From the IMG/VR virus record IMGVR_UViG_3300025771_000165, positions 1 to 25,689 of that record: a stretch of 25,689 nucleotides of DNA. One strand, written 5' to 3'. Each line of letters begins with the position of its first letter. Position 1 is the stretch's first letter. Both the position numbers and the translations under genes were made by a program. The notes below the pieces were generated by a model, which had not been told where the DNA came from, ran no database searches, and was given only the letters and a program-made list of their open reading frames with translations. This DNA is from a virus. Positions 2,735 through 22,072 of the stretch are shown here, in pieces.

Positions 2735-2963
2735 AGTTGGCCTCGAAATGTTGATACGAAGCCTCCTTGATAAAGTCGAGTTCGTGGTTAATGATTACTC
2801 TCGCTACTGTAATCATGTTAGCCACGATTCCAGGGTTAATGCATGCACCCCCGTCAACGTCATGCAAATCCTCGTAAAACTCAGTGATGTAGTCGTGCAA
2901 GCGCAAACACGCTATGCTGTAGCTATCACTTAGTTGCTCTCTTGTTAGATCTTTTTTTGCCAT
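2682..2963 (-). CDS. Hypothetical protein, 93 aa
   Basis: No family recognised. The protein is acidic and mostly helical in appearance (LTREQLSDSYSIACLRLHDY). It overlaps the genes on both sides, by 38 nt upstream and 53 nt downstream, and so sits between two predicted nucleases. It could be an accessory factor for one of them, but only position suggests this. Confidence 0.7.
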   Translation of the reverse strand: MAKKDLTREQLSDSYSIACLRLHDYITEFYEDLHDVDGGACINPGIVANMITVARVIINHELDFIKEASYQHFEANYDQSEQAEILFGDGEGS

Positions 2964-3411
2964 ATCCTAGTTCTTTTAGTATCGCTATTGCTTGCTCCAC
3001 CTGCTGTTTGTTTTTGCAGATGAAGAGAGCTGGGACTGGTTCTCCTGAGTCTATCAAGTGACGAAGGAACAACTTCCACCGCATCGGGAAATCATGATGC
3101 GATGGAGTGTACCCTTTGGTTTCTATCACCCATTCTCCGTTTGGTCCTACGAAGTCTGGAGTGTATTTAATGGGAAGGACCGTCGAGTCTGTTCGATTCG
3201 ACAGGTCTTTCCGCTTGGTAGTCATCTTCCAGTATATACCAGGGTATTTGAATTTATCTACGAGCATGTATTCATGTGTCTCGTAGGTAAAACTTAGCCC
3301 CGATTCAGCTAAAAGATCAGCGCAGGTTTTTTCTAACCCGCTTTTATACTTCCCCAAAGACCGCTTCTTGGCTGTTTTTCTCCTCGGTGTCCCGTTTTTG
3401 TTTCGCTTCAC
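2926..3411 (-). CDS. T7 endonuclease I-like Holliday junction resolvase
   Basis: A 161-residue protein with the residue order of T7 gp3: YKSGLEK (Glu27), YTPDF (Asp86) and WVIETKGY (Glu97, Lys99), which form the PD-(D/E)XK metal site. Enzymes of this family cut branched DNA, resolve recombination intermediates and debranch replicating phage DNA before packaging. Lysine-rich tails at both ends probably bind DNA. The start is a GTG at 3411; a TAnnTTTG box ends 6 nt upstream, so the mRNA may be leaderless. It follows the primase-helicase gene and overlaps the next gene by 38 nt. Confidence 0.85.
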   Translation of the reverse strand: MKRNKNGTPRRKTAKKRSLGKYKSGLEKTCADLLAESGLSFTYETHEYMLVDKFKYPGIYWKMTTKRKDLSNRTDSTVLPIKYTPDFVGPNGEWVIETKGYTPSHHDFPMRWKLFLRHLIDSGEPVPALFICKNKQQVEQAIAILKELGYGKKRSNKRATK

Positions 3412-3416
3412 TAAGG

Positions 3417-3424
3417 CAAAGGTA
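3417..3424 (-). promoter_or_regulatory. Candidate -7 box TACCTTTG before the resolvase gene
   Basis: Read leftward, TACCTTTG matches the Bacteroidota TAnnTTTG element and is followed by CCTTA and the GTG start. There is no clear TTTG about 20 bp upstream, only a T-rich run, so this promoter is weaker on paper than those at 8.2, 11.6, 13.6 and 15.2 kb. Confidence 0.45.
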
Positions 3425-3428
3425 CAGC

Positions 3429-5246
3429 CTATTGCATTAAAAACGACGTATTAACAGGAAAATTTATTACATCTTGCTCACCACCCTCCAGTTCAACAGC
3501 ATCAAAGAGCAAATTTTGCTTGGGCCAAACCCTAAATCCTGTGCGAGATGTATTCATTTCGAGTCGGATAGGGTCATCAAGGCCAGTAGGCTGTCCGCCT
3601 GTCTCTACGTCTCGCACCTTACGGACGTGAAACTCGGTGATTCTGCGTTGCGAATGGTCTGGATGCTGAACCTTTCGGTGAATAGTGATGAAGCAGTCGG
3701 CACGGTTTACAAACTTGCCTCCACCCTCGGTGTCTTCTGCATACGGAGCCGTGGGTAATCCGTCGTCTCCTTTGCGTCGTTGCGCCTCGCTGAATGCATG
3801 CATGTTTAACCAAACGGCTACGTTGTTAGCCGTAGAGAAGGTAAGAAACTCAGAAGCTGCTTCGTAGTGGTATTCGTGACTGCTCTTGTTTGTAGTTCCC
3901 ATATCAAGCTTTAAGCTGTTGTAGGGATCAACGAAAACAGCATCCACTTCTTGTTGGCGAAGGATCTTCTCAAGGAATACGATGATATCTCCGTAGCTGT
4001 ACACTTGCTTATTGCTGATGACCGTGAAGTGCTTTCCTACCCACTCATAAGCTCGCTTCCTCTCCATGTGATTCATAGAAGTTACGTTCTTGTTCATAGC
4101 AAACTGAATAAGCGTTTTCTTCAGGGCTGCTGTGCGGTTCTCAGAGGAGTACACCACCCACTTCCATCCATGACGGATAGCAGCGTTGACCATGAGGTAA
4201 AGCACCATAGTAGTTTTACCCACGTTGCTGTGACCATTGATGATAGTGAATTCTTTCTTGTAGCGGAAGAACTCGTCCATACTGGTGTCGCCTGTGTCCA
4301 GACCTACCTCGATGTTACCGTTAGCGTAGTCATCAATCCATCGGAAGTCCTCATCGTCCGAGGATATGAATGACATGTCACCATCGTTAATAGCCATCTC
4401 ACGGCGCATCTTGTTCTCCTCGTCCATGGTCTCATGGATAGGACGCAGCTTGCCCGCTTCTATGCCGTCGCGGATAGTACGTAGTGCTAATTGCTCGTCG
4501 TCTACTTCGCGCTTCATAATCTCTCGCGTGAGAACACGAATGACCTCATCTTCTTCTGCGCGTCCAGCCGCTATCAAACCGCCGCAGAATCGGGAAGCAC
4601 GTAACAGAGTACTGTGTTTCTCTCCGTCCTCGCAGAGACGAATCAAACGAGACGCGATGTTAATCTTCTGGTAGTCTGTGTATACCCCCGCTTTGGATAC
4701 AGCTACCTGAGATTCAGACTTCTCTGAAGATAGCCCACCATACACAGCTGATTCCTCGTTGATTACAATCTCAGGGTCGTATGACTCGAAGCAAGCTCGG
4801 GATTCGTTAATTCCAGATTCGTCTACCTCTAGGTCATAGGTCTTCTCGAAGTATGTGCGAAGCGAACGGAAGTGGTCGCGGTGCCGCTCAGGGTTGCTTA
4901 CCTTAACGAGCGCCTTAAGTCCGTCGCCACTCGGAGAAACCCAACAGCCATAGACATAAGGATCCGTGGATAGAAGCGCCTTGGATGCCGTAACATCAAT
5001 GTGATCGAAGTCGAGTACAATGAATTGGCTATGACGCGCAAGCGCATTGTCATTACGTGTTTCAAATTCCCCTGAGAAGAGGACGACAGGTAGGGACTTC
5101 TTAAAATCTTTAGCTTGTTCTCCTCCATTGCGTATTGTTTCAATCTTCGTTGCAGAATCGCCCTCCTTGATTCGCTTCAGGGCTTTGGCTATCGGCATGT
5201 GGTAAGCCTTCTTCGAGTACAGGGTCTCGAACATCGTTACTCTCAT
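3429..5246 (-). CDS. Primase-helicase: BT4734/VirE-like primase domain fused to a RecA-fold helicase
   Basis: Numbered from a TTG at 5258 (609 aa); I prefer the ATG at 5246 (605 aa). Residues about 1-170 resemble the BT4734/VirE N-terminal, archaeo-eukaryotic-primase-like domain: LDFDHID (Asp83, Asp85), SPSGDGLKALVK at 108-119 and the SRACFESYDP strand at 153-162. A linker of about 110 residues leads to a DnaB/RecA-like ATPase with Walker A GHSNVGKT (342-349) and Walker B VFVDP (Asp444). The fusion would lay primers and unwind DNA at the fork. The gene overlaps the upstream DUF3310 gene by about 107 nt, yet the conserved primase N-terminus lies inside the overlap, so the overlap appears real. 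Whether the primase half still makes primers is not provable here. Confidence 0.85.
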   Translation of the reverse strand: MRVTMFETLYSKKAYHMPIAKALKRIKEGDSATKIETIRNGGEQAKDFKKSLPVVLFSGEFETRNDNALARHSQFIVLDFDHIDVTASKALLSTDPYVYGCWVSPSGDGLKALVKVSNPERHRDHFRSLRTYFEKTYDLEVDESGINESRACFESYDPEIVINEESAVYGGLSSEKSESQVAVSKAGVYTDYQKINIASRLIRLCEDGEKHSTLLRASRFCGGLIAAGRAEEDEVIRVLTREIMKREVDDEQLALRTIRDGIEAGKLRPIHETMDEENKMRREMAINDGDMSFISSDDEDFRWIDDYANGNIEVGLDTGDTSMDEFFRYKKEFTIINGHSNVGKTTMVLYLMVNAAIRHGWKWVVYSSENRTAALKKTLIQFAMNKNVTSMNHMERKRAYEWVGKHFTVISNKQVYSYGDIIVFLEKILRQQEVDAVFVDPYNSLKLDMGTTNKSSHEYHYEAASEFLTFSTANNVAVWLNMHAFSEAQRRKGDDGLPTAPYAEDTEGGGKFVNRADCFITIHRKVQHPDHSQRRITEFHVRKVRDVETGGQPTGLDDPIRLEMNTSRTGFRVWPKQNLLFDAVELEGGEQDVINFPVNTSFLMQ

Positions 5247-5451
5247 AGTGGTATTCAATTAGTAAGTTCAGGTAATGGATTGCTTTTAGAACGTCCTCCT
5301 TCCCATTCTTGTGGGCGTGTCTGCACACGTATTTGATTACGTTCCCTTCGATGAACGGTATGTCATTAGCAGCTATGAATTCAGTTGGCTGAATTTTCAT
5401 GTGCTTGTAATGGCCTCCGCCTATCTGTTTATCGCTGTGTTTCTTTGACAT
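5140..5451 (-). CDS. DUF3310 family protein (T7 gp1.7-related)
   Basis: Residues 13-66 contain the DUF3310 pattern: GGHYKHMKIQPTEFI, then EGNVIKYVCRHAHKNGKEDV and LKAIHYLNLLIEY. In coliphage T7 the related gp1.7 is a nucleotide kinase acting on dTMP and dGMP. Many phages carry short versions of this domain whose activity is untested, so a role in nucleotide metabolism is inference. The tail after residue 66 has low conservation value and is encoded in the stretch that overlaps the primase start. Confidence 0.8.
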   Translation of the reverse strand: MSKKHSDKQIGGGHYKHMKIQPTEFIAANDIPFIEGNVIKYVCRHAHKNGKEDVLKAIHYLNLLIEYHYESNDVRDPVLEEGLPHADSQSPEANQGGRFCNED

Positions 5452-5683
5452 CTACAGTGGTTCCTATTTGCTTAATGTTATCGACCCTATCAATTATGAT
5501 AGCTCGTTGCTTAGCCTTTGGGGTAAGCAGCTCCTGATCGAGCCTGTACATAGTGTGTTTGTCATGCTTCATAATATCCCTGGGGTTATCATATTTGCTT
5601 ACAATCCACACGTTTCTTTTCTGGGGGTGCTTGTTCTTAATGAACGTAGCCCTCCCAGTCATGTAATAGATTGGTTGACCCAT
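5429..5683 (-). CDS. Hypothetical basic protein, 84 aa
   Basis: No family recognised. Rich in Lys/Arg (FIKNKHPQKRNVWIVSKYD; IIIDRVDNIKQIG). It starts at an ATG 13 nt beyond the terminator that follows the SSB-like gene, and overlaps the DUF3310 start by 23 nt. A partial -7 box (TATCTTTA) lies just upstream of the ATG, so it may open a new transcript. Confidence 0.6.
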   Translation of the reverse strand: MGQPIYYMTGRATFIKNKHPQKRNVWIVSKYDNPRDIMKHDKHTMYRLDQELLTPKAKQRAIIIDRVDNIKQIGTTVDVKETQR

Positions 5684-5696
5684 GGCGTAAAGATAA

Positions 5697-5735
5697 GAGG
5701 AAAGAAAGGGGGTGAGACTTTCGCCTGCACCCCCC
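5697..5735 (-). terminator. Terminator after the SSB-like gene
   Basis: Read leftward: GGGGGTG pairs with CACCCCC (5728-5734 with 5708-5714). Inside, AGGC/GTCT closes a GAAA tetraloop. TTTCTTTCC follows. The U tract is interrupted, so it may stop only part of the transcripts. That would let the SSB-like protein be made in excess over the genes beyond. Confidence 0.7.
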
Positions 5736-5758
5736 TGCTAACCTGAAAACCACTATGC

Positions 5759-6064
5759 TTAGAACGGGATAGTCTCGGTATCCTCTGTTTTAGCCGTATT
5801 GTTTCGACGCTCTTGCGCCGCTTCGCTGTTCGGGTCCCACACGCTGAGGCATGCTTTGCCGTTCTTCGACATGAAGAGACGGAATCGAACGTTACCGCCT
5901 TGACCGCTAGCATCACGCTTGGTGGTGTATTGGTCAATGCAGTCCTTTAGCTCGTTGTCCTTGAGGCGGAAAGACCACCCCATCAACTCGCCGTTGTCAT
6001 TGTAGCTAGGCTCGTCTGCCCAGCCTACGAGAACACTCTCGTACTTCTTGCTCTGATCACTCAT
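5759..6064 (-). CDS. Single-stranded-DNA-binding-like protein
   Basis: A 101-residue protein ending KTEDTETIPF, very like the acidic C-terminal tip (DDDIPF) by which bacterial SSB recruits partner proteins. The body alternates polar and aromatic residues (MGWSFRLKDNELKD; VRFRLFMSKNGKACLSVWDP), as expected of an OB fold, but it is shorter than E. coli SSB (178 aa) and I see no classical SSB motif. It has its own promoter (6093-6123) and terminator, which fits an abundant protein needed in stoichiometric amounts. It would coat ssDNA at forks and hand it to the annealing protein and exonuclease encoded upstream. Confidence 0.65.
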   Translation of the reverse strand: MSDQSKKYESVLVGWADEPSYNDNGELMGWSFRLKDNELKDCIDQYTTKRDASGQGGNVRFRLFMSKNGKACLSVWDPNSEAAQERRNNTAKTEDTETIPF

Positions 6065-6092
6065 TTGTAAAGAAAGTTAGTAAATAAGACAT

Positions 6093-6123
6093 GAAAGATA
6101 ATGGCTGCTGAAACAAACAGCAA
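6093..6123 (-). promoter_or_regulatory. Promoter of the SSB-like gene with an overlapping hairpin
   Basis: Read leftward: TTG (6123-6121), 20 bp, then TATCTTTC (6100-6093), seven of eight matches to TAnnTTTG. The leader is about 25 nt. The spacer contains most of an 8-bp hairpin (6103-6110 with 6118-6125, 7-nt loop). That hairpin pairs fully only in leftward RNA, where one pair is G-U, so it may also act as a terminator or RNA stabiliser for the exonuclease gene that ends at 6140. Confidence 0.65.
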
Positions 6124-6139
6124 CCGTTTGATTGGTTTT

Positions 6140-6922
6140 TTATACTTCATACTGCAAATAATCTTTTACGGGGTCATAATCTTCTCGCATGAAATGCCTG
6201 ATACGATTGATTGCATCGTTGAATTTCATTTCCCCAGTGAATAATGTTTCATCCGTACACTTGACCAATGCTGGCAGGTAAGGATATGTTTTTTCTTGCA
6301 CCACCCAGTAGAAATCTTTGATTCCAAAGACCTTCGTGTAGATGTATGCTTGGATGTCGTAACAGAAGTCGCGCACTGCATAGCGGAACTTCTCCGCACT
6401 ACGCGCTGACTTGCTGTCGCTGATGAATCCGTCACCCAGGCAGTCGAGGAATCCCTTGACCTGAACACCGTTCAGTTCCTCAAGGAATCCCACCTGGTAG
6501 TCTCCCGCCAGGTATGTATCTAGTAAGCCGCAAGTGGCGAGACGGTCGATCATATCGTTCGCCATTTGCCAGTCATCACTAGAGACAATCGTCTTGCCTT
6601 CTTCGAGAGCCTCCGTCTTCATGGATGCAACAACAGCCTTGTACTCAGAGGTCATCGATGGTTTCTTCGAGTTTCGTGCCTTATCTGAAAGCCTAGCCAT
6701 TACTTGGCTGTCAGACATCACGATGTATTTCTCGAATGCTTGCTCACGTTCGAACAGCAGCATATCGTATAATGTACCGAAGTCTAACGCATCGGACTTG
6801 TACTTCAGCTCTCCCTTCATGTAGCGGTCGAACTGCGCCATGTCACCCAGCGCTTGCTTCAGCGAGGAGTACGACAGGTGTGACTTGCCGTACCGTTCTT
6901 GTAGTTGTTCAGATAAATTCAT
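6140..6922 (-). CDS. RecE-like PD-(D/E)XK exonuclease
   Basis: Probably resects double-stranded DNA ends 5' to 3' for the annealing protein encoded two genes upstream. Numbered from the ATG at 6922 (260 aa): LDFGTLYDMLLFE at 47-59 matches the start of the RecE/DUF3799-type fold. Glu148, Asp160 in GFLDCL, and FISDSKSA (Asp169, Lys171) give the E...D...DxK metal site, and YDIQAYIYTKVF (Gln191, Tyr193) is the usual QxxxY helix. A longer frame begins at a TTG (6967), but the ATG overlaps the upstream stop by 14 nt in the style of this operon, so I prefer it. Cas4-like or AddB-like nuclease is a less likely alternative. Confidence 0.8.
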   Translation of the reverse strand: MNLSEQLQERYGKSHLSYSSLKQALGDMAQFDRYMKGELKYKSDALDFGTLYDMLLFEREQAFEKYIVMSDSQVMARLSDKARNSKKPSMTSEYKAVVASMKTEALEEGKTIVSSDDWQMANDMIDRLATCGLLDTYLAGDYQVGFLEELNGVQVKGFLDCLGDGFISDSKSARSAEKFRYAVRDFCYDIQAYIYTKVFGIKDFYWVVQEKTYPYLPALVKCTDETLFTGEMKFNDAINRIRHFMREDYDPVKDYLQYEV

Positions 6923-8928: not shown

Positions 8929-9315
8929 TTAGAATGGAGGGGAATCAACGGGGTCTTCTTCCTCCTGGCATTCATGATTTCCAGTCAAGACGAAGATGCT
9001 GCGGTCATCAGTCACAAGGACGTCGAACTTCTCATCGTTCATGATGTTGCTGTACCTGTCCGTCCAGTTGGGGTTGTGGCGTGGGTTGAAGCGTACATAG
9101 AAGTCGTTCTCGCATGGCTTGATGAGGTCAGCTTGACCTAGCACTTGCAATTCGTCACACTCCACCCAAGCACACACAGTTTTGCATGCACCTTCATGGA
9201 TTTTCTTTGATGTACCGAGCTGCACCTTGAGCTTGGCGTTGAACATAGCAAGCTGTCGTTGCTCTGGTCGGTAGTACTCGACTGTACCGTCAGGGCATTT
9301 TACCTGCCACTTCAT
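8929..9315 (-). CDS. Hypothetical protein with an SSB-like C-terminal tip, 128 aa
   Basis: No family named. It begins MKWQVKCPDGTVEYYRPEQR and ends EEEDPVDSPPF, an acidic tail closing in Pro-Pro-Phe that resembles the SSB partner-binding tip. Four cysteines occur between residues about 40 and 70. I choose the ATG at 9315: it overlaps the upstream stop as ATGA and is preceded by GAGGAG. A longer frame to 9357 exists but would overlap the upstream small gene. It may bind ssDNA or mimic the SSB tip to recruit host proteins. Confidence 0.7.
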   Translation of the reverse strand: MKWQVKCPDGTVEYYRPEQRQLAMFNAKLKVQLGTSKKIHEGACKTVCAWVECDELQVLGQADLIKPCENDFYVRFNPRHNPNWTDRYSNIMNDEKFDVLVTDDRSIFVLTGNHECQEEEDPVDSPPF

Positions 9316-9464
9316 GAAGTTGTCTCCTCGTCCGAGGTGGAATCTAATTTTGTACATGAGAGTTTTGATTGGTAGTTAATTTTTACTTGGTGGTATACGT
9401 GTTGCATCCACTCGTTGAAGTCCTTCGCGGGATCTTCGTTCGCGCTTGACCGTATGCATATCAT
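9312..9464 (-). CDS. Small protein, 50 aa, coupled at both ends
   Basis: The frame begins MICIRSSANEDPAKDFNEWM and ends STSDEETTS. Its ATG overlaps the TGA of the upstream gene (ATGA at 9464-9461) and its TGA overlaps the next ATG (ATGA at 9315-9312). Perfect coupling on both sides is strong evidence that it is translated. No family recognised. Confidence 0.7.
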   Translation of the reverse strand: MICIRSSANEDPAKDFNEWMQHVYHQVKINYQSKLSCTKLDSTSDEETTS

Positions 9465-14528: not shown

Positions 14529-14914
14529 TTTACAAAGATTTCTTTTTCATTCTCAAGGTCGTAGATAGCCCGCTCCCCGCGCTTCGCAGCGAGTGCAAGT
14601 GCTTCCTGCTCGTCATCGAGGACGTTGCACAAATCGAAGACAATCTTGCCGTCTTCGACCCATGTGCCTATGACCACCGCAGACTCGCGCTCCAGAGCCA
14701 ACTCAGCTTGATAGAAGAAGCGGTTATACGTCTGCGTGAAAGCCATTTCGTTGTCCATATCGCAGGACTTTTCGGGTACGATTCCGCCCACTACATACCC
14801 ATACTTAGGTACATAGAACTCGCGGTTGTCCATGATTCCGATTGAAGAGCCACCAGTCAGCATCGTGCTGCCGTATGCGAAGCACATAGCTTCGTCGAAA
14901 GAAAAGTTTTTCAT
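14525..14914 (-). CDS. Hypothetical protein, 129 aa
   Basis: Begins MKNFSFDEAMCFAYGSTMLT. Mixed strands and helices; the C-terminal helix is rich in Ala and Glu (DDEQEALALAAKRGERAIYD). No family recognised. The leader contains AAACTCTAAATCTC, a variant of the leader found before several genes of this block. Confidence 0.65.
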   Translation of the reverse strand: MKNFSFDEAMCFAYGSTMLTGGSSIGIMDNREFYVPKYGYVVGGIVPEKSCDMDNEMAFTQTYNRFFYQAELALERESAVVIGTWVEDGKIVFDLCNVLDDEQEALALAAKRGERAIYDLENEKEIFVK

Positions 14915-14925
14915 AGAAAAGAGAT

Positions 14926-15006
14926 TTAGAGTTTGAACGATTCGTCAGCAACGTAGGTCACGCCCACCACGAAGGCAAGCAGGACAGCGTACACCACCCA
15001 CATCAT
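14926..15006 (-). CDS. Tiny membrane peptide, 26 aa
   Basis: Frame MMWVVYAVLLAFVVGVTYVA plus DESFKL: about 18 hydrophobic residues followed by a short charged tail, enough for one membrane helix with the tail on one side. Its ATG overlaps the upstream TGA (ATGA at 15006-15003) and it fills the gap between two genes. A small holin-like or membrane-anchor role is possible, but there is no lysis gene beside it. Confidence 0.6.
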   Translation of the reverse strand: MMWVVYAVLLAFVVGVTYVADESFKL

Positions 15007-15167
15007 TGGGCAGTTCCGATTAAGTCCTCCAGCTTCATCTGCTCATCGCACGGGAGTGCATCCCAGCCCGCTGTGCAGGTGATGGTAGAACCAAGGAGTT
15101 GAACATCGTTGAACAAGGCCGAAGCCATCTGCGCTTTCTTGCGCTCTGTGTTTGTGCTGTGTAGCAT
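15003..15167 (-). CDS. Small protein, 54 aa; first gene after promoter copy 3
   Basis: I use the ATG at 15167 (MLHSTNTERKKAQMASALFN), about 35 nt beyond the promoter. The longer frame to 15236 would begin upstream of the predicted RNA start. Two cysteines (TITCTAGWDALPCDE). No family recognised. Confidence 0.6.
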   Translation of the reverse strand: MLHSTNTERKKAQMASALFNDVQLLGSTITCTAGWDALPCDEQMKLEDLIGTAQ

Positions 15168-15204
15168 CTGAGAGAGATTTAGAGTTTGGCTGAATTGCCG
15201 ACTG

Positions 15205-15237
15205 CAAAGATAAGGCAAAGAACCCTTAACTTCCAAA
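15205..15237 (-). promoter_or_regulatory. Promoter copy 3 of 3 inside the small-gene operon
   Basis: Read leftward: TTTG (15237-15234), 21 bp, TATCTTTG (15212-15205), again preceded by AAATAAATTTGGAA. The spacer is one base longer than in copies 1 and 2. Confidence 0.8.
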
Positions 15238-15261
15238 TTTATTTTTTACCCTTTAGGGTAG

Positions 15262-15519
15262 TTAGTCGATGACATCGTACATCTCCCATGTGGGAGCGTC
15301 ATCATGCCAGCACACCACCGTGTGTGACTCACACGCTGGCTCGAACACGTAGTCCGCGCTCTCTACTTCTTTGAAGTAGCAGCAATCATCCCCCTCTTTG
15401 AGGATGATATCGACAGCCCAGTTCGCGGCGCTCTCTGCGTCTGCGAAGTTGCGCTTGCAGCGGAACTCTCCGCCGTGTTCCCCGAAGGGGAAAACAAAAG
15501 CAAAAATTGGTTGACTCAT
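15262..15519 (-). CDS. Hypothetical acidic protein, 85 aa (paralogue of the next gene upstream)
   Basis: Begins MSQPIFAFVFPFGEHGGEFR. Shares the order F-x-F-x-x-P-x-G, RxF, AAxxW, DD-x-x-YF and a C-terminal Asp with the 81-aa protein encoded at 15569-15814, so the two look like tandem duplicates. Both also share the leader TAACCTTTAAAATC-nnn-GATTTTATG, a 6-bp hairpin directly before the start codon. No named family. Its DNA is part of the hairpin array. Confidence 0.65.
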   Translation of the reverse strand: MSQPIFAFVFPFGEHGGEFRCKRNFADAESAANWAVDIILKEGDDCCYFKEVESADYVFEPACESHTVVCWHDDAPTWEMYDVID

Positions 15520-15568
15520 AAAATCGTAGATTTTAAAGGTTAGAAAAAACAGAATAAGTTATTGACTT

Positions 15569-15814
15569 TCAGTCAATTTCACGAGCGAAGTGGTGGTGGT
15601 GAAATACCGAATCCCACCAATCCCACTCGACCGCCCAGTATCCACCTACGTGCTTACGATCGAGCGCACTCTGGCCCTCGTATGCAAGCTGGAAGTAGAT
15701 GAGGTCGTCATCGGACTCGACCATGAAGTCCTCCACCCACTCGGTGGCCGCGTCTATGCTCTCGAAAGAGCGCACGACTCCCCCTTCGGGGAGTTGAAAA
15801 AAGTATGCTTTCAT
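15569..15814 (-). CDS. Hypothetical acidic protein, 81 aa (paralogue of the next gene downstream)
   Basis: I use the ATG at 15814 (MKAYFFQLPEGGVVRSFESI); the frame continues up to 15895 through the stop of the upstream gene but has no start support. The C-terminus has a run of four His (SVFHHHHFAREID) that might bind metal. The stop codon lies in the loop of a 7-bp hairpin (15561-15577), and a TTTTTT run 11 nt further could make it a weak terminator or attenuator ahead of the paralogue. Confidence 0.65.
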   Translation of the reverse strand: MKAYFFQLPEGGVVRSFESIDAATEWVEDFMVESDDDLIYFQLAYEGQSALDRKHVGGYWAVEWDWWDSVFHHHHFAREID

Positions 15815-15845
15815 AAAATCAAAGATTTTAAAGGTTAAACTTCGT

Positions 15846-16586
15846 TTAAACAGCAGGGGCAAAAGATGGCTCCAACATCGGATTGCTTTCAGCAATCAAC
15901 GCAAGTGCCTCCAGTCGCTCTCGCTCCAGCACTGCCGAGCGGTGCCGAGCCATAGCCTCCTCTGGAGACTCTCCTGGAAGGAGAGTCAGCTTCATTTGTT
16001 CCTTCTTTCGAACCTTCGGTTCGACTACTTGAACCTCTTTACGAGGTTCAAACGGTTGAGCATCACCTTCGGTGATGGCATGAACAACTTTGGTCTTCAC
16101 TGCTCTGCCAACTTTGTTGGCAGTAGCAGTCTTAGCTTGAGTTAACTCAAGCCCAGCAGTTGACGACCCTTTGGGTCGTCGAACAGTCTTCTTCGAAGAC
16201 TTCTTAGCTTTCTTCGAAAGCTTTCTAGCAGCAGCTCTCTCCTCTTGGAGGAGAGCATGAAGCTCCTTGTTCAGAACGGAACGTTCTGCTTTCTTGAGCT
16301 TCTTACCAGAGGTAAGAATAGCCTCAATCTCAGCCTTACGGCTGGTCTTTGAAGCCGACTTCGAAGCCTTTGGCTTCGCTTTAGAAGCCTTTGGCTTCTT
16401 CTTTGACTTCGAAGCCTTCGGCTTCGGTTGCTCCTTCGGAGCCTCAATGGCTTCGATGAAGTTCGACAACGAAGCTAAAGCTTCGAGAGTAGCCTCCTTC
16501 TTAGAAGGAGTAGGGTTGAAAACAAAGCTGTTTACAGCTTTCTTAGCTGCCTTCAGCAGCTCTGAGTGGGAAATGGTGTTTGCCAT
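15846..16586 (-). CDS. Lysine/alanine-rich basic protein (histone H1-like composition)
   Basis: A 246-residue protein with a short folded N-terminus (ISHSELLKAAKKAVNSFVFN), a long Lys/Ala/Ser/Pro segment with repeats (KPKASKSKKK, PKASKAKPKASK), a second basic stretch (RKLSKKAKKSSKKTVRRPKG) and a helical C-terminus (GESPEEAMARHRSAVLERER). The composition resembles histone H1 and bacterial nucleoid proteins, so binding DNA or RNA is likely; no catalytic motif is seen. Its DNA is packed with perfect hairpins, about twenty between 15967 and 16561, so base choice seems constrained beyond the protein. It could bind the hairpins encoded by its own region, but that is inference. No promoter of the usual form was found upstream. 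Confidence 0.75.
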   Translation of the reverse strand: MANTISHSELLKAAKKAVNSFVFNPTPSKKEATLEALASLSNFIEAIEAPKEQPKPKASKSKKKPKASKAKPKASKSASKTSRKAEIEAILTSGKKLKKAERSVLNKELHALLQEERAAARKLSKKAKKSSKKTVRRPKGSSTAGLELTQAKTATANKVGRAVKTKVVHAITEGDAQPFEPRKEVQVVEPKVRKKEQMKLTLLPGESPEEAMARHRSAVLERERLEALALIAESNPMLEPSFAPAV

Positions 16587-17364
16587 AACTGTTAGATATT
16601 AAGATTAAAAGAAGAATTCACAGAATTCATTCTTCTTATAATCTATATCTACTTCCTCCAAACTCTTTCGGTATCAGCTTGCTGATACTCCTGCGGTTTG
16701 GTAGCCAAACATATGAGCATCGAAGATGCTTCAGCGCGTTTGGACAAACGGCCTCAGTTTCAACCAGTTAGTAGCAGTTTCTTAAACTGCTAGTTAGCCT
16801 TCAGTAATGAAGGCTTGTAGTTCGACCATAGGTCGAGGAGGGGGATTGTCCTGCCCTTCTCCTCAGCAGTTTTACTGCTGTCACTTCCAGCGGTTGATGA
16901 ATCAACCGAGGGCAATCCTCTTAGTATCAGGCTGTTAGCCTGCTACTAAAAGCTGAAAAGTATAGCAGAATCTCAAGAGATTCTGAGGTACGGGGTCTGC
17001 CAAATCGATTTTGGAACGTAGTTCCAAGCGGTCTATACTATATATAATCCCTCAGATCTGTATTACACACCTATTTTCCAAGCCTGGTTGTGCACACGAT
17101 ATCCACGAAACGACCAGCAAATCTGTTTAGTAAGCTGTTTATCAGAGACTTATGGGGATTGCTTAAAGCATATTATAGACTTGCATTTTTAAAAAAAAAG
17201 CTGTAACTTCGCCAAAGCATTGTTAGCGATGATACTTCGAAGCTGTTTTGATTCTAAGGAGCTTCTAGAGGGGTTTGCAAGTGCAAACAAACAGACACTA
17301 CGAAGCGTCAATCAAACTAATGAAGCTGTGAGAGGCGCAAAAACTGTTTTATTATCTTTGTGAC
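16587..17364. other. 778-bp gene-free region between the leftward and rightward blocks
   Basis: No supported ORF. From 16614 to 17039 it is the right half of the hairpin array, including a nested 12-bp hairpin with one mismatch (16921-16949) and a 7-bp outer pair enclosing several hairpins (16959-17039). From 17040 to 17352 structure is sparse: one 7-bp hairpin (17273-17288) and an A tract near 17191-17200. The position between divergent blocks suits an origin, a packaging signal, a long structured leader or a non-coding RNA. Confidence 0.7.
17353..17360 (+). promoter_or_regulatory. -7 box TATCTTTG, first rightward promoter, leaderless
   Basis: A perfect TAnnTTTG ends 4 bp before the ATG at 17365, so the RNA should start at or beside the start codon. 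A TGTG about 22 bp upstream (17327-17330) is a poor match to the upstream box. Confidence 0.7.
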
Positions 17365-17856
17365 ATGAGAACAAAAAAGTACAACGGAGACCCAGTACCA
17401 GCAGAGTCAACTGCTACTAGAAAGCCTATGGATCCTAGGATGATTCAGGCTCTGAATGAGATGGTTGAATTCCAAAGAATGGCCAAAAGAAAGGATGAGG
17501 AAGAGATGCTTGGTTACCCTGCTTCTTATAGCGGGAGAGTAGAGGGTACGGAAGACCCTATTACAGCTTTGCTTGGTTTGGGACCTCAGTTTCTTAAGTC
17601 TGTAGGTAAGAAAGGAGTTCAAGCTTTGATGGGTGCTGTTAAGTCTGGCCAACCAGTTAAGCAAGCGGCTGATGACGTAGCCAGAATGGCTAGAAAGAAC
17701 TACCCAGATGAACCTTTGGACAGCGAAGCTTTGTACAAGTTGTTTGATGAGGCTGGTGTAGACAGTAACGTTTTGGATGAGTGGTTGGTTAATGCTACTT
17801 ACGAACCAGGAGGCCCAGGATACAGAGTTATTAAGATGTCTAGGGACGTCAACTGA
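17365..17856 (+). CDS. Hypothetical protein, 163 aa; first rightward gene
   Basis: Begins MRTKKYNGDPVPAESTATRK. The N-terminal third is hydrophilic; a Gly/Ala-rich helical part (ALLGLGPQFLKSVGKKGVQA) follows, then an acidic C-terminus. This layout occurs in small virion or ejection proteins, but I cannot name a family. The stop overlaps the next start (TGATG). Confidence 0.7.
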   Translation: MRTKKYNGDPVPAESTATRKPMDPRMIQALNEMVEFQRMAKRKDEEEMLGYPASYSGRVEGTEDPITALLGLGPQFLKSVGKKGVQALMGAVKSGQPVKQAADDVARMARKNYPDEPLDSEALYKLFDEAGVDSNVLDEWLVNATYEPGGPGYRVIKMSRDVN

Positions 17857-21781: not shown

Positions 21782-22007
21782 CTATCCTTCGACTATAGAT
21801 TACTACAGCGATGAATGGACTCATGACTGGTCTACCGATGTATCTAGCACCGTACATTTTAATCCATGTAACACGCCTAACCCACCGTGGTGGTGCGAAG
21901 AACACGAACCAATCCCGATCGAACCGAACATTTTAATGATTGTTGGAATGTTCACATTTGGAACATTACTTTTGACAAAGAAATGCACCCGTAGCTCAGC
22001 TGGATAG
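21753..22007 (+). CDS. Small membrane protein whose 3' end overlaps a tRNA, 84 aa
   Basis: A hydrophilic N-terminal part rich in Tyr/Trp/Pro ([37 protein letters not shown]) is followed by one membrane helix at about residues 58-75 ([19 protein letters not shown]). The last eight codons and the stop (23 nt) lie inside tRNA-Arg, from the first base of the acceptor stem into the D arm. Translation and tRNA maturation from the same RNA would be mutually exclusive. No family recognised. Confidence 0.55.
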
Positions 22008-22058
22008 AGCATCTGCCTTCTAAGCAGACGGTCACAGGTTCGAATCCTGTCGGGTGTA
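21985..22058 (+). tRNA. tRNA-Arg (anticodon UCU)
   Basis: Complete cloverleaf: acceptor GCACCCG/CGGGTGT, D arm GCTC-AGCTGGATA-GAGC, anticodon arm TCTGC-CTTCTAA-GCAGA with anticodon TCT, variable loop CGGTC, T arm ACAGG-TTCGAAT-CCTGT, discriminator A. No CCA is encoded. It reads AGA and, by wobble, AGG. It lies directly before the glycosyltransferase cassette, whose first gene uses AGA/AGG for 17 of its 18 arginines by my count. Confidence 0.97.
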
Positions 22059-22072
22059 CTAATTAAGTATCA

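Follow-up and report, generated by a model that had tools for sequence, protein, structure and literature searches.

Many short inverted repeats per genome are found in the palindromic repeat families REP and RPE, and dense stem-loops occur in known kinds of large structured phage RNAs. The hairpins of phage N4 form at sub-physiological superhelical density, and their extrusion needs a C-G closing pair with G at the 5' end and A at the 3' end of the loop (PMC4496689). N4 is described as having three early-promoter hairpins with conserved bases (-17 to +1), each at a transcription start and served by one polymerase (PMC4496689). Template switching is able to create and maintain hairpins (PMC8794818) and homogenises arms in yeast genes (PMC8604942); quasi-palindrome mutations in yeast assays were seen under high transcription only (PMC3820800). 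For the coding palindromes of Nematomorpha mitochondria, a rule for the order of codon phases has been given, and the authors suggest conversion without function (PMC6649704).

Here, we focus on an array of short perfect hairpins in the window, that is, the whole stretch of 25,689 nucleotides analysed (virus record IMGVR_UViG_3300025771_000165). The data point to a DNA structure zone of an undescribed kind, and not to protein code, a known RNA or a repeat family.

The hairpin array and its genomic setting

The array and its surroundings comprise the following features:

15247..17039, no strand: hairpin array, 41 perfect hairpins, arm 6-9 bp, loop mostly 3 nt
15262..15519, minus strand: small gene, 85 aa, 4 hairpins, tail of the array
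15569..15814, minus strand: small gene, 81 aa from ATG, 1 hairpin inside and others at its borders
15846..16586, minus strand: basic-protein gene, Lys/Arg-rich, 246 aa, 18 hairpins within the coding sequence
16587..17040, no strand: non-coding leader of the array, 13 hairpins
16593..16651, no strand: long conserved imperfect hairpin, ending directly before the basic-gene start codon, with paired changes in relatives
17191..17246, minus strand: terminator-like element, GCTTCG...CGAAG with a minus-strand T run, conserved
17365..17856, plus strand: first gene of the right arm, which is divergent; the array does not extend to this side

A sequence-only reading had claimed a dense cluster of about forty short perfect hairpins, with more than twenty-five 7-bp hairpins in 1.8 kb. 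The cluster is real: positions 15247-17039 hold 41 hairpins with arms of at least 6 bp and loops of 2-5 nt, 29 of them with arms of at least 7 bp, while 300 dinucleotide shuffles give means of 1.69 and 0.49 (maxima 7 and 4). Under a looser rule, which also counts loops able to close further, the total is 43, with arms of 6 bp (12), 7 bp (18), 8 bp (9) and 9 bp (4) and loops of 3 nt (29), 2 nt (9), 5 nt (3) and 4 nt (2). That no two stems are alike is nearly correct, the arms TAAAATC and CGAAGCC each occurring twice; with only these two duplicated among 43, the array is indeed not a copied repeat family. The hairpins are also unevenly spaced, and the small-gene part has gaps of 199 and 98 bp. 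No periodic spacing is evident, and the centres of non-overlapping neighbours are separated by at least about 20 bp. Longer-range helices were rejected as the main feature because their excess in the array is below that of short hairpins.

The excess is not a codon effect, as had been argued from its continuation into gene-free DNA and as counts for the single parts show. The basic-protein gene has 18 hairpins (arm at least 6 bp, here and below) compared with 2.04 in 300 synonymous-codon shuffles (maximum 7), 0.76 in codon-order shuffles and 1.01 in dinucleotide shuffles; its amino-acid order is itself somewhat palindrome-friendly (2.04 vs 0.76). The gene at 15262-15519 has 4 (0.36 in shuffles, maximum 3) and that at 15569-15814 has 1 (0.06 in shuffles). 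The relative excess is larger still in the non-coding part, 16587-17040, with 13 hairpins vs 0.39 (maximum 3). Dinucleotide- and codon-preserving controls, the check that the sequence-only reading had proposed, are thus far lower than the observed counts. Outside the array, the window has a mild surplus (31 vs 18.4 for arms of at least 6 bp, 10 vs 4.0 for arms of at least 7 bp). Chance, codon usage or an assembly artefact therefore has a negligible probability of having produced the array: Lys/Ala-rich coding is slightly palindrome-friendly, but this explanation is already refuted by the shuffles and by the relatives, in which the array is present on 17 contigs (close relatives) and 27 contigs (farther relatives).

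The array lies at the divergence point of left and right genes, at the head of a leftward replication operon, and the GC-skew minimum falls at about 16.5-17.0 kb. Of the packaging or origin zone considered in the sequence-only reading, position and GC skew fit a putative replication origin or early-operon zone. Hairpin density rises about 600 bp upstream of the basic-protein gene, is maximal in the gene and fades across about 1.5 kb. This profile, with a sharp upstream edge and downstream decay, is repeated in three groups of 13, 5 and 18 loci, and in close relatives the terminator-like element marks the upstream edge.

Conservation, turnover and geometry of the hairpins

The array is a conserved property of a phage clade, present at the same locus in close and distant relatives. 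Among 18 close loci on 17 contigs (L011 and L017 share one), 17 have a strong cluster at the same gene, defined as at least 6 hairpins with arms of at least 7 bp in one 500-bp bin, and one (L018) is weak, with 3. L001 and L002 match the window's gene at 100%. Of 30 loci in farther relatives, spread over 27 contigs, 29 have a densest kilobase that overlaps the matched gene; in the remaining one, truncated by the contig end, it stops just short of the match. Relatives of the basic-protein gene are located in the arrays of the other phages, most of which were found with this gene as query, while G009 and G011 entered first via the helicase. Four helicase relatives without a basic-gene match (G007, G008, G010 and G013) have no such array. 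The clade is uncultured, podovirus-like and probably Bacteroidota-infecting. The primase/helicase of the window is 33% identical to that of Maribacter phage Panino, and the array is absent from both Panino and Flavobacterium phage elemo6-3D. Positions 14900-17400 have no DNA match among known phages in the phage collection, and a prokaryote genome scan with alignment A1 gave 174 pattern stretches and no confirmed relatives. Phage ctfjg026 and record G007 were rejected as similar cases, as their early region has repeated near-identical palindromes, which is a different thing.

In coding and non-coding array DNA alike, letters change while pairing is kept. At 10-20% flank divergence, 207 array hairpins are changed but perfect and 244 broken, compared with 2 and 186 for hairpins elsewhere in the same genomes, and pairing is better maintained in the array at each flank divergence tested. 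The paired substitutions that the sequence-only reading expected in relatives are thus present; however, arms are also broken in the array, more often with increasing divergence. Broken vs paired changes amount to 3.5% vs 2.3% at 5-10% flank divergence and 13.1% vs 4.7% at 20-35%. For coding pairs, paired changes reach 3.6% and 3.4% at flank distances under 3% and of 3-8%, compared with 1.3% and 1.6% single-broken, while at 8-15% broken changes (5.9%) exceed paired ones (2.9%). Beyond about 5-8% flank divergence, broken changes are hence more frequent than paired ones. Several positions of leader hairpins are retained among relatives while both arms change. Loci L007 and L010, although they have 0 differences in the 78-80 flank bases aligned, differ in the perfect hairpin at one and the same spot (7 bp in one case, 8 bp in the other); the centres are 3 bases apart, and of the three substitutions between the hairpins a single copying event accounts for two. 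Both this pair and the paired changes support template-switch mutation, one of the mechanisms initially proposed, as a route of change.

Hairpin size is narrowly distributed. Across 14 arrays, 7-bp arms combine with loops of 3 nt in 130 cases (1.2 expected), of 2 nt in 35 (0.7 expected) and of 4 nt in 3 (1.2 expected), and 8-bp arms with 4-nt loops in 10 (0.2 expected). Stem length has its mode at 7 bp and ranges mostly from 6 to 9 bp; arms of 10 or more number 3 in total over these arrays. Stems of 7 bp with 3-nt loops are perfect in 197 cases (1.7 expected) and have one mismatch in 180 (33.6 expected). The mismatch lies at the ends in 117 (9.6 expected; closing pair 32 vs 4.9, outer pair 85 vs 4.7), at pairs 5-6 from the loop in 42 (9.5 expected) and at pairs 2-4 in 21 (14.5 expected). 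Closing pairs of the 221 distinct leader hairpins are CG (134), TA (60), AT (16) and GC (11), and GNA/TNC loops are enriched, making up 61 of 111 triloops closed by CG or TA (26.8 expected). Leader loops are near strand-symmetric (GAA 23, TTC 18; AA 23, TT 27), with asymmetries for TAC (16, vs 4 GTA) and CTT (10, vs 5 AAG). In coding DNA, triloop hairpins (n=122) take codon phases 1, 2 and 3 in 69, 39 and 14 cases and so follow the order of coding freedom, 1 > 2 > 3. All distinct coding hairpins (n=213, counts mapped to phases) give 104, 60 and 49, and loop-2 (19, 8, 19) and loop-4 hairpins (7, 11, 12) alone do not disfavour phase 3.

The basic protein has no match in the phage collection searched. 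Pro-Phe occurs near the C terminus in 15 of 25 aligned basic proteins, 6 of which end in it; among these 25, neither the window's protein nor the G009 group has such an SSB-like tip. The SSB interaction tip motif is DDDIPF, with acidic residues before Pro-Phe (PMC5872125). The predicted structure of the family (first row L111; mean pLDDT 73, pTM 0.29) consists of two N-terminal helices (pLDDT about 95), a linker of poor prediction quality and a long helix. The model has no confident overall fold.

RNA, promoter, by-product or DNA zone

Dense stem-loops might form in the mRNAs of the leader and early genes, or in a non-coding RNA from the opposite strand, and serve stability, regulation or evasion of RNA-targeting defence. 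The RNA folds predicted for 16590-17060 far surpass those of shuffles (z -9.3 on the minus strand, -6.8 on the plus strand), and consensus structures have two-sided changes in 33 of 79 plus-strand and 28 of 67 minus-strand pairs. Some nested longer helices (loop 41-80) are present in the leader (4 vs 0.55) and the coding part (6 vs 2.1), and the array tracks the head of a transcription unit. However, the DNA-parameter fold deviates at least as strongly (z -11.0), and wobble pairs are not preferred inside stems on either strand in four alignment groups. The 117 distinct inner mismatches comprise 22 G-T, 21 A-C and 74 others, compared with 19.5, 19.5 and 78 expected for equal types. In predicted tRNA stems of the same sequences (38 tRNAs), 67 of 788 pairs are G-U, which serves as a yardstick of G-U frequency rather than a full control because the program marks only standard and G-U pairs. 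Loops have 3 rather than 4 nt, whereas rRNA hairpins have loops of 4 nt in 42% and of 3 nt in 6% (PMC8794818, table 2), and the leader loops are nearly, though not fully, strand-symmetric. No Rfam family reaches the gathering score within the array (six sub-threshold matches over 15200-17400); the sole match at this score in the window is a tRNA at 21985-22058. The long RNA of stem-loops considered in the sequence-only reading is disfavoured by wobble, loop size and Rfam, and RNA-level structure as the explanation of the array is improbable. We infer that the constraint acts at the DNA rather than the RNA level. An RNA component may possibly exist in the non-coding part, because A-C states exceed G-T states on its minus strand (10 vs 2, distinct, ends included) and because the RNA consensus is better on the plus strand (-63.0 vs -51.4). 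Counted by cells, the non-coding part has 6 G-T vs 77 A-C, mostly because few end-pair states recur across several sequences.

The suggestion of N4-like hairpins in single-stranded DNA held for geometry: 7-bp stems, 3-nt loops, C-G closing and GNA loops, located at an early operon, would suit promoters read by an injected virion RNA polymerase. The N4 loop rule (C-G closing, 5' G, 3' A) nevertheless appears in the array as a trend only (CG 134/221, GNA/TNC 61/111). The bases shared by N4 promoters are absent, arms and loops vary between hairpins, and many hairpins lie in genes. An N4-like RNA polymerase was not found in the large proteins searched, a weak absence given incomplete records: the G001 protein of 2610 aa matches no polymerase in PHROGs, Pfam or PDB sequences, PHROGs likewise gives no polymerase for three further large proteins, and scanning eight large proteins for motifs turned up isolated DxxGR words and no motif B. 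A set of N4-type promoters is hence very improbable. A mutational by-product, although doubtful, carries more weight. Here, the early-operon head, as R-loop, highly transcribed or origin DNA, would be a template-switch hot spot, where replication repeatedly perfects near-palindromes, protein coding then filters them and the hairpins themselves have no function. The differing hairpins of L007 and L010, the surplus of paired changes at low flank distance in coding pairs and the literature on template switching (PMC8604942, PMC8794818, PMC3820800) favour it, as do an apparent near-binary perfection and the codon-phase bias, as described for Nematomorpha mtDNA (PMC6649704). A hot spot of mutation alone would also be compatible with the smooth decay of hairpin density with distance, with position turnover and with the absence of conserved sequence. 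Yet this reading requires that the process stay within some 2 kb at a single locus across deep divergence while hairpins elsewhere decay; stems end at about 9 bp with loops mostly of 3 nt where free copying could give longer repeats, as in Nematomorpha, and several leader positions are retained.

We give about even chances to the array being a zone of short DNA hairpins that heads the leftward early/replication operon as a DNA-level structural element. In this view, the zone would have a structural role when replication is initiated or early genes are transcribed: negative supercoiling would drive its hairpins out as small cruciforms, or they would fold where the DNA is single-stranded. Template switching may copy one-arm changes to the other arm and so yield perfect pairing, which selection would then keep. 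The first candidate partner is the Lys-rich protein encoded within the array, with its SSB-tip-like C terminus in some relatives; the lack of this tip in the window's protein and the G009 group speaks against it. The preponderance of broken over paired changes at higher divergence, the excess of one-mismatch stems and the missing array in the four helicase relatives speak against the zone. A fuller version, less likely than not, is a structure-only DNA code. In it, some forty extrudable N4-like hairpins, whose geometry is fixed and whose sequence is free, would overlie coding and non-coding DNA. The cruciform row at the early-operon head would be bound by the basic protein encoded inside it and start replication or early transcription, while arm-to-arm template switching keeps perfection.

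Comparison with known systems

We know of no described locus at which dozens of unlike short DNA hairpins, inside genes and outside them, stay paired at a constant position over deep divergence. A full-text literature search, with most subscription papers outside its scope, found no such locus described among the matches listed. The 10-bp minimum arm length in a survey of 118,019 genomes excludes every hairpin of the window's array (PMC13155455). If selected, the array would represent a nucleic-acid element of a new kind that is recognised by its shape. As a by-product, it would be a natural hot spot in which to watch the origin and upkeep of perfect stems and to map the cause of the hot spot, which would make an old question directly testable.

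With REP and RPE the array has in common many short inverted repeats, but it has no shared sequence and occupies a single locus. Dense stem-loops are common to the array and to large structured phage RNAs and Rfam families; unlike Rfam-type RNAs, the array has no gathering-score match, no wobble preference and triloops, and it continues through genes. The coding palindromes of Nematomorpha resemble it in perfect inverted repeats inside coding genes, position turnover, codon-phase bias and a proposed arm conversion by template switching (PMC6649704). There, long repeats of up to 284 bp are described over many mitochondrial genes (PMC6649704), whereas the array has arms of 6-9 bp and mostly 3-nt loops at one phage locus, in coding and non-coding DNA alike. 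Template-switch (quasi-palindrome) mutation likewise keeps arms complementary by paired or multi-base changes; its events are described genome-wide or in RNA genes (PMC8794818, PMC8604942), whereas the array shows maintenance at one locus. The hairpins of N4 are similar in form, with short stems, 3-nt loops, C-G closing, G and A at the loop ends and a location in a phage early region, and the 7-bp stem that is the mode of the array is also that of one studied N4 promoter (PMC4496689). N4, however, has three hairpins with conserved bases, while the array has about 40 of free sequence, many of them in genes.

Setting and hairpin excess of the array

The window (25,689 bases; a virus record in IMG/VR) has leftward left-arm genes, among them those of a B12-type ribonucleotide reductase and of a helicase carrying BT4734-N and DnaB-like domains, and mostly rightward right-arm genes. 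The array lies at the junction of the two arms, where cumulative GC skew has its minimum (~16.5-17.0 kb). Among 31 phage records matching the helicase, 22 carry the names of Flavobacteriia genera; by these helicase relatives, the host may belong to the same class. The following features are referred to below:

15247-17039: hairpin array
15846-16586 (-): basic gene, encoding a Lys/Arg-rich protein of 246 aa
16587-17040: leader, the gene-free array DNA upstream of the basic gene (in relatives, the corresponding DNA)
17191-17365 (-): stretch strongly conserved among close relatives, directly upstream of the array; its end is a terminator-like element (GCTTCG...CGAAG with a T run), and it is perhaps a small leftward RNA
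21985-22059: tRNA-Arg (TCT), right arm

The array contains 41 perfect hairpins with arms of at least 6 bp and loops of 2-5 nt (43 by a slightly looser rule), 29 of them with arms of at least 7 bp. Dinucleotide shuffles of the interval (n = 300) yield means of 1.69 and 0.49 and highest counts of 7 and 4, respectively. The dense array claimed by the sequence-only reading is thus real, and so is its independence of codon usage, as the basic gene holds 18 hairpins vs. 2.04 (maximum 7) with synonymous codons shuffled. The leader holds 13 vs. 0.39 in shuffles; the window outside the array shows a slight excess (31 vs. 18.4 expected). The same reading held that the array is not a copied repeat family, which is upheld, and that no two stems are alike, which is not exact because two arm sequences occur twice each. 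Chance, a codon effect, a repeat family and artefact are excluded as sources.

Arrays and basic proteins among relatives

The basic protein as query gave 18 close loci, spread over 17 contigs; two of the loci match the window's basic gene at 100% identity. At 17 of the 18, one 500-base bin at this gene contains at least six hairpins with arms of at least 7 bp; the exception, L018, has three. Two proteins of the virus record G009 as queries led to 30 farther loci. These lie on 27 contigs, of which the three with L090-L095 share one identical gene. The densest kilobase of each locus contains 8 to 30 hairpins with arms of at least 6 bp, and at 29 loci it overlaps the basic gene that was matched. 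In L119, where the contig ends inside the basic gene, it stops one base short of the match, still within the reading frame (opening at 4809). Since most loci were found through the basic gene, they cannot give the frequency of arrays without it. Among nine further records, G009, G011 and G014 combine strong arrays with a basic-protein match, arrays are weak in G006 and G012, whose matches stand at 7.7e-5 and 2.2e-8 (the G012 hairpin scan covered 20,000 of 26,659 bases), and G007, G008, G010 and G013 (a 34-kb fragment) show neither such an array nor a match at E 0.1.

Five of the 17 close-relative contigs (L001, L004, L010, L012, L014) end inside or within ~450 bases of the basic gene, and thus assemblies may break within the array. 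The contig of L104 forms an inverted duplication around the array (2865-6636), chimeric or real. Two phages without the array, G007 (45287-47388) and ctfjg026 (MW202828.1; 43745-46522), have repeated, operator-like palindromes in their early regions, TGTCCACtagGTGGACA (three identical copies and two variants) and GTGTCGTtaACGACAC (eight copies). G001 (L028 2051-9883; L027 14167-18828) shows distant kinship with crAss-like phages in two proteins, one of 2610 aa containing an LPD38 domain and one of 1553 aa containing a Crassvirus muzzle C-terminal domain.

Relative to the basic-gene start codon, the 13 loci of the window group and the 18 of the most distant group show hairpin density near background until about -750, a peak of 20-30 per kb inside the first 500 bp of the gene and a return to near background by about +1750. 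The divergent right arm has no hairpin array. The G009 group (5 loci) has an additional leading gene that also bears hairpins, and here the rise starts at about -1250. An extra early gene of G009 (58817-59383; L080 18817-19383) encodes 188 aa and contains 17 hairpins; its product resembles the basic protein at the N terminus, and it is possibly a paralogue.

Across 37 listed forms of the basic protein, Lys and Arg make up 16-28%, and two N-terminal helices are confidently predicted; for the window protein, neither Pfam nor PHROGs gives a match at E 0.001. Two other window genes, 5759-6064 (-) and 8929-9357 (-), have products ending in ETIPF and DSPPF, similar to SSB C-terminal tips.

Maintenance of pairing and the level of constraint

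Array and outside hairpins were treated alike in pairwise BLAST alignments of 13 sequences; the counts are sequence pairs, not independent events.

Table. Hairpins by flank divergence (identical/changed but perfect/broken)
<5%: array 187/19/17; outside 23/0/15
5-10%: array 319/31/64; outside 31/12/61
10-20%: array 552/207/244; outside 60/2/186
20-35%: array 192/100/210; outside 9/1/223

Pairing is maintained in the array and not at hairpins elsewhere. The contrast is smallest at 5-10% divergence, and above 5% broken hairpins outnumber paired changes even within the array. In coding array DNA, paired changes amount to 3.6 and 3.4% of pairs at <3% and 3-8% divergence and single-broken ones to 1.3 and 1.6%; at 8-15% the order flips (2.9 vs. 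5.9%). The leader shows no altered stem in 32 comparisons below 8% divergence, and 2.8% paired and 0.3% single changes at 8-15%.

That the array functions through selection is an even proposition in our judgement; a mutational by-product bound to this locus is a less likely but quite possible alternative. Close distinct comparisons comprise 35 identical, 6 paired-only, 12 broken-only and 5 mixed cases; by eye, 7 of the 12 broken-only cases affect an end pair. Two of these 12 rows are L007 vs. L010, close relatives with zero differences in 78-80 flank bases and yet different perfect hairpins (7 and 8 bp, centres 3 bases apart), separated by three substitutions, two of which are accounted for by one copying event. 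Triloop hairpins occupy the codon phases 69, 39 and 14 times (n = 122), matching the order of coding freedom, as computed for nematomorph palindromes (PMC6649704); hence the array genes appear real and to act as a filter on hairpins. Loops of 2 and 4 taken alone lack this order.

Were RNA pairing under selection, the transcribed strand should accept G-U more readily than A-C. Across four alignment groups, the distinct inner mismatches comprise 22 G-T, 21 A-C and 74 other, vs. 19.5, 19.5 and 78 under equal use of all types; for scale, the stems of 38 tRNAs predicted from these sequences contain 67 G-U in 788 pairs. Single mismatches are near chance at pairs 2-4 from the loop (21 vs. 14.5) and over-represented at pairs 5-6 (42 vs. 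9.5) and stem ends, and thus some stems are merely shorter or imperfect. On the leader minus strand, end pairs included, A-C mismatches number 10 vs. 2 G-T; the plus-strand consensus energy is -63.0 vs. -51.4. Both leave room for a plus-strand RNA in the leader. Overall, the constraint is likely to act at the DNA level.

Loop geometry and likeness to known systems

Hairpin geometry is tightly limited. Over 14 arrays, whose related sequences share hairpins so that counts are not independent, loops of 3 occur 80, 130, 45 and 12 times with arms of 6, 7, 8 and 9 (3.0, 1.2, 0.2 and 0.1 expected) and never with arms of 10-13. Loops of 2 come second (arm 7: 35 vs. 0.7), and loops of 4 are scarce (arm 7: 3 vs. 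1.2; arm 8: 10 vs. 0.2). This loop law is unlike RNA: rRNA hairpins favour loops of 4 (42%, vs. 6% of 3; PMC8794818, table 2).

The acidic and Pro-Phe ends of some basic proteins resemble the SSB tip DDDIPF (PMC5872125). Pro-Phe follows mostly acidic residues near the C terminus in 15 of 25 aligned proteins, six at the very end; no such tip occurs in the window's own protein or in the G009 group. In L013, L015 and L016 this end sits in a hairpin spanning the stop codon, so that part of the resemblance may be accidental.

The closing pair of leader hairpins is mostly C-G (134) or T-A (60) and rarely A-T (16) or G-C (11), and 61 of 111 leader triloops closed by C-G or T-A are GNA (TNC on the other strand) vs. 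26.8 expected from neighbouring pentamers; strand symmetry of leader loops is near but incomplete. No virion RNA polymerase was found among the large proteins searched. The early promoters of N4 are hairpins of DNA, with a 7-bp stem in a studied promoter; they extrude at superhelical densities lower than physiological and require C-G as the pair closing the loop, with G at the loop's 5' end and A at its 3' end (PMC4496689). The array obeys the same rule, as a trend only, whereas the bases common to N4 promoters are missing from its hairpins. Nematomorph mitochondria likewise maintain palindromes in coding DNA, but these are long and spread over genes (PMC6649704).
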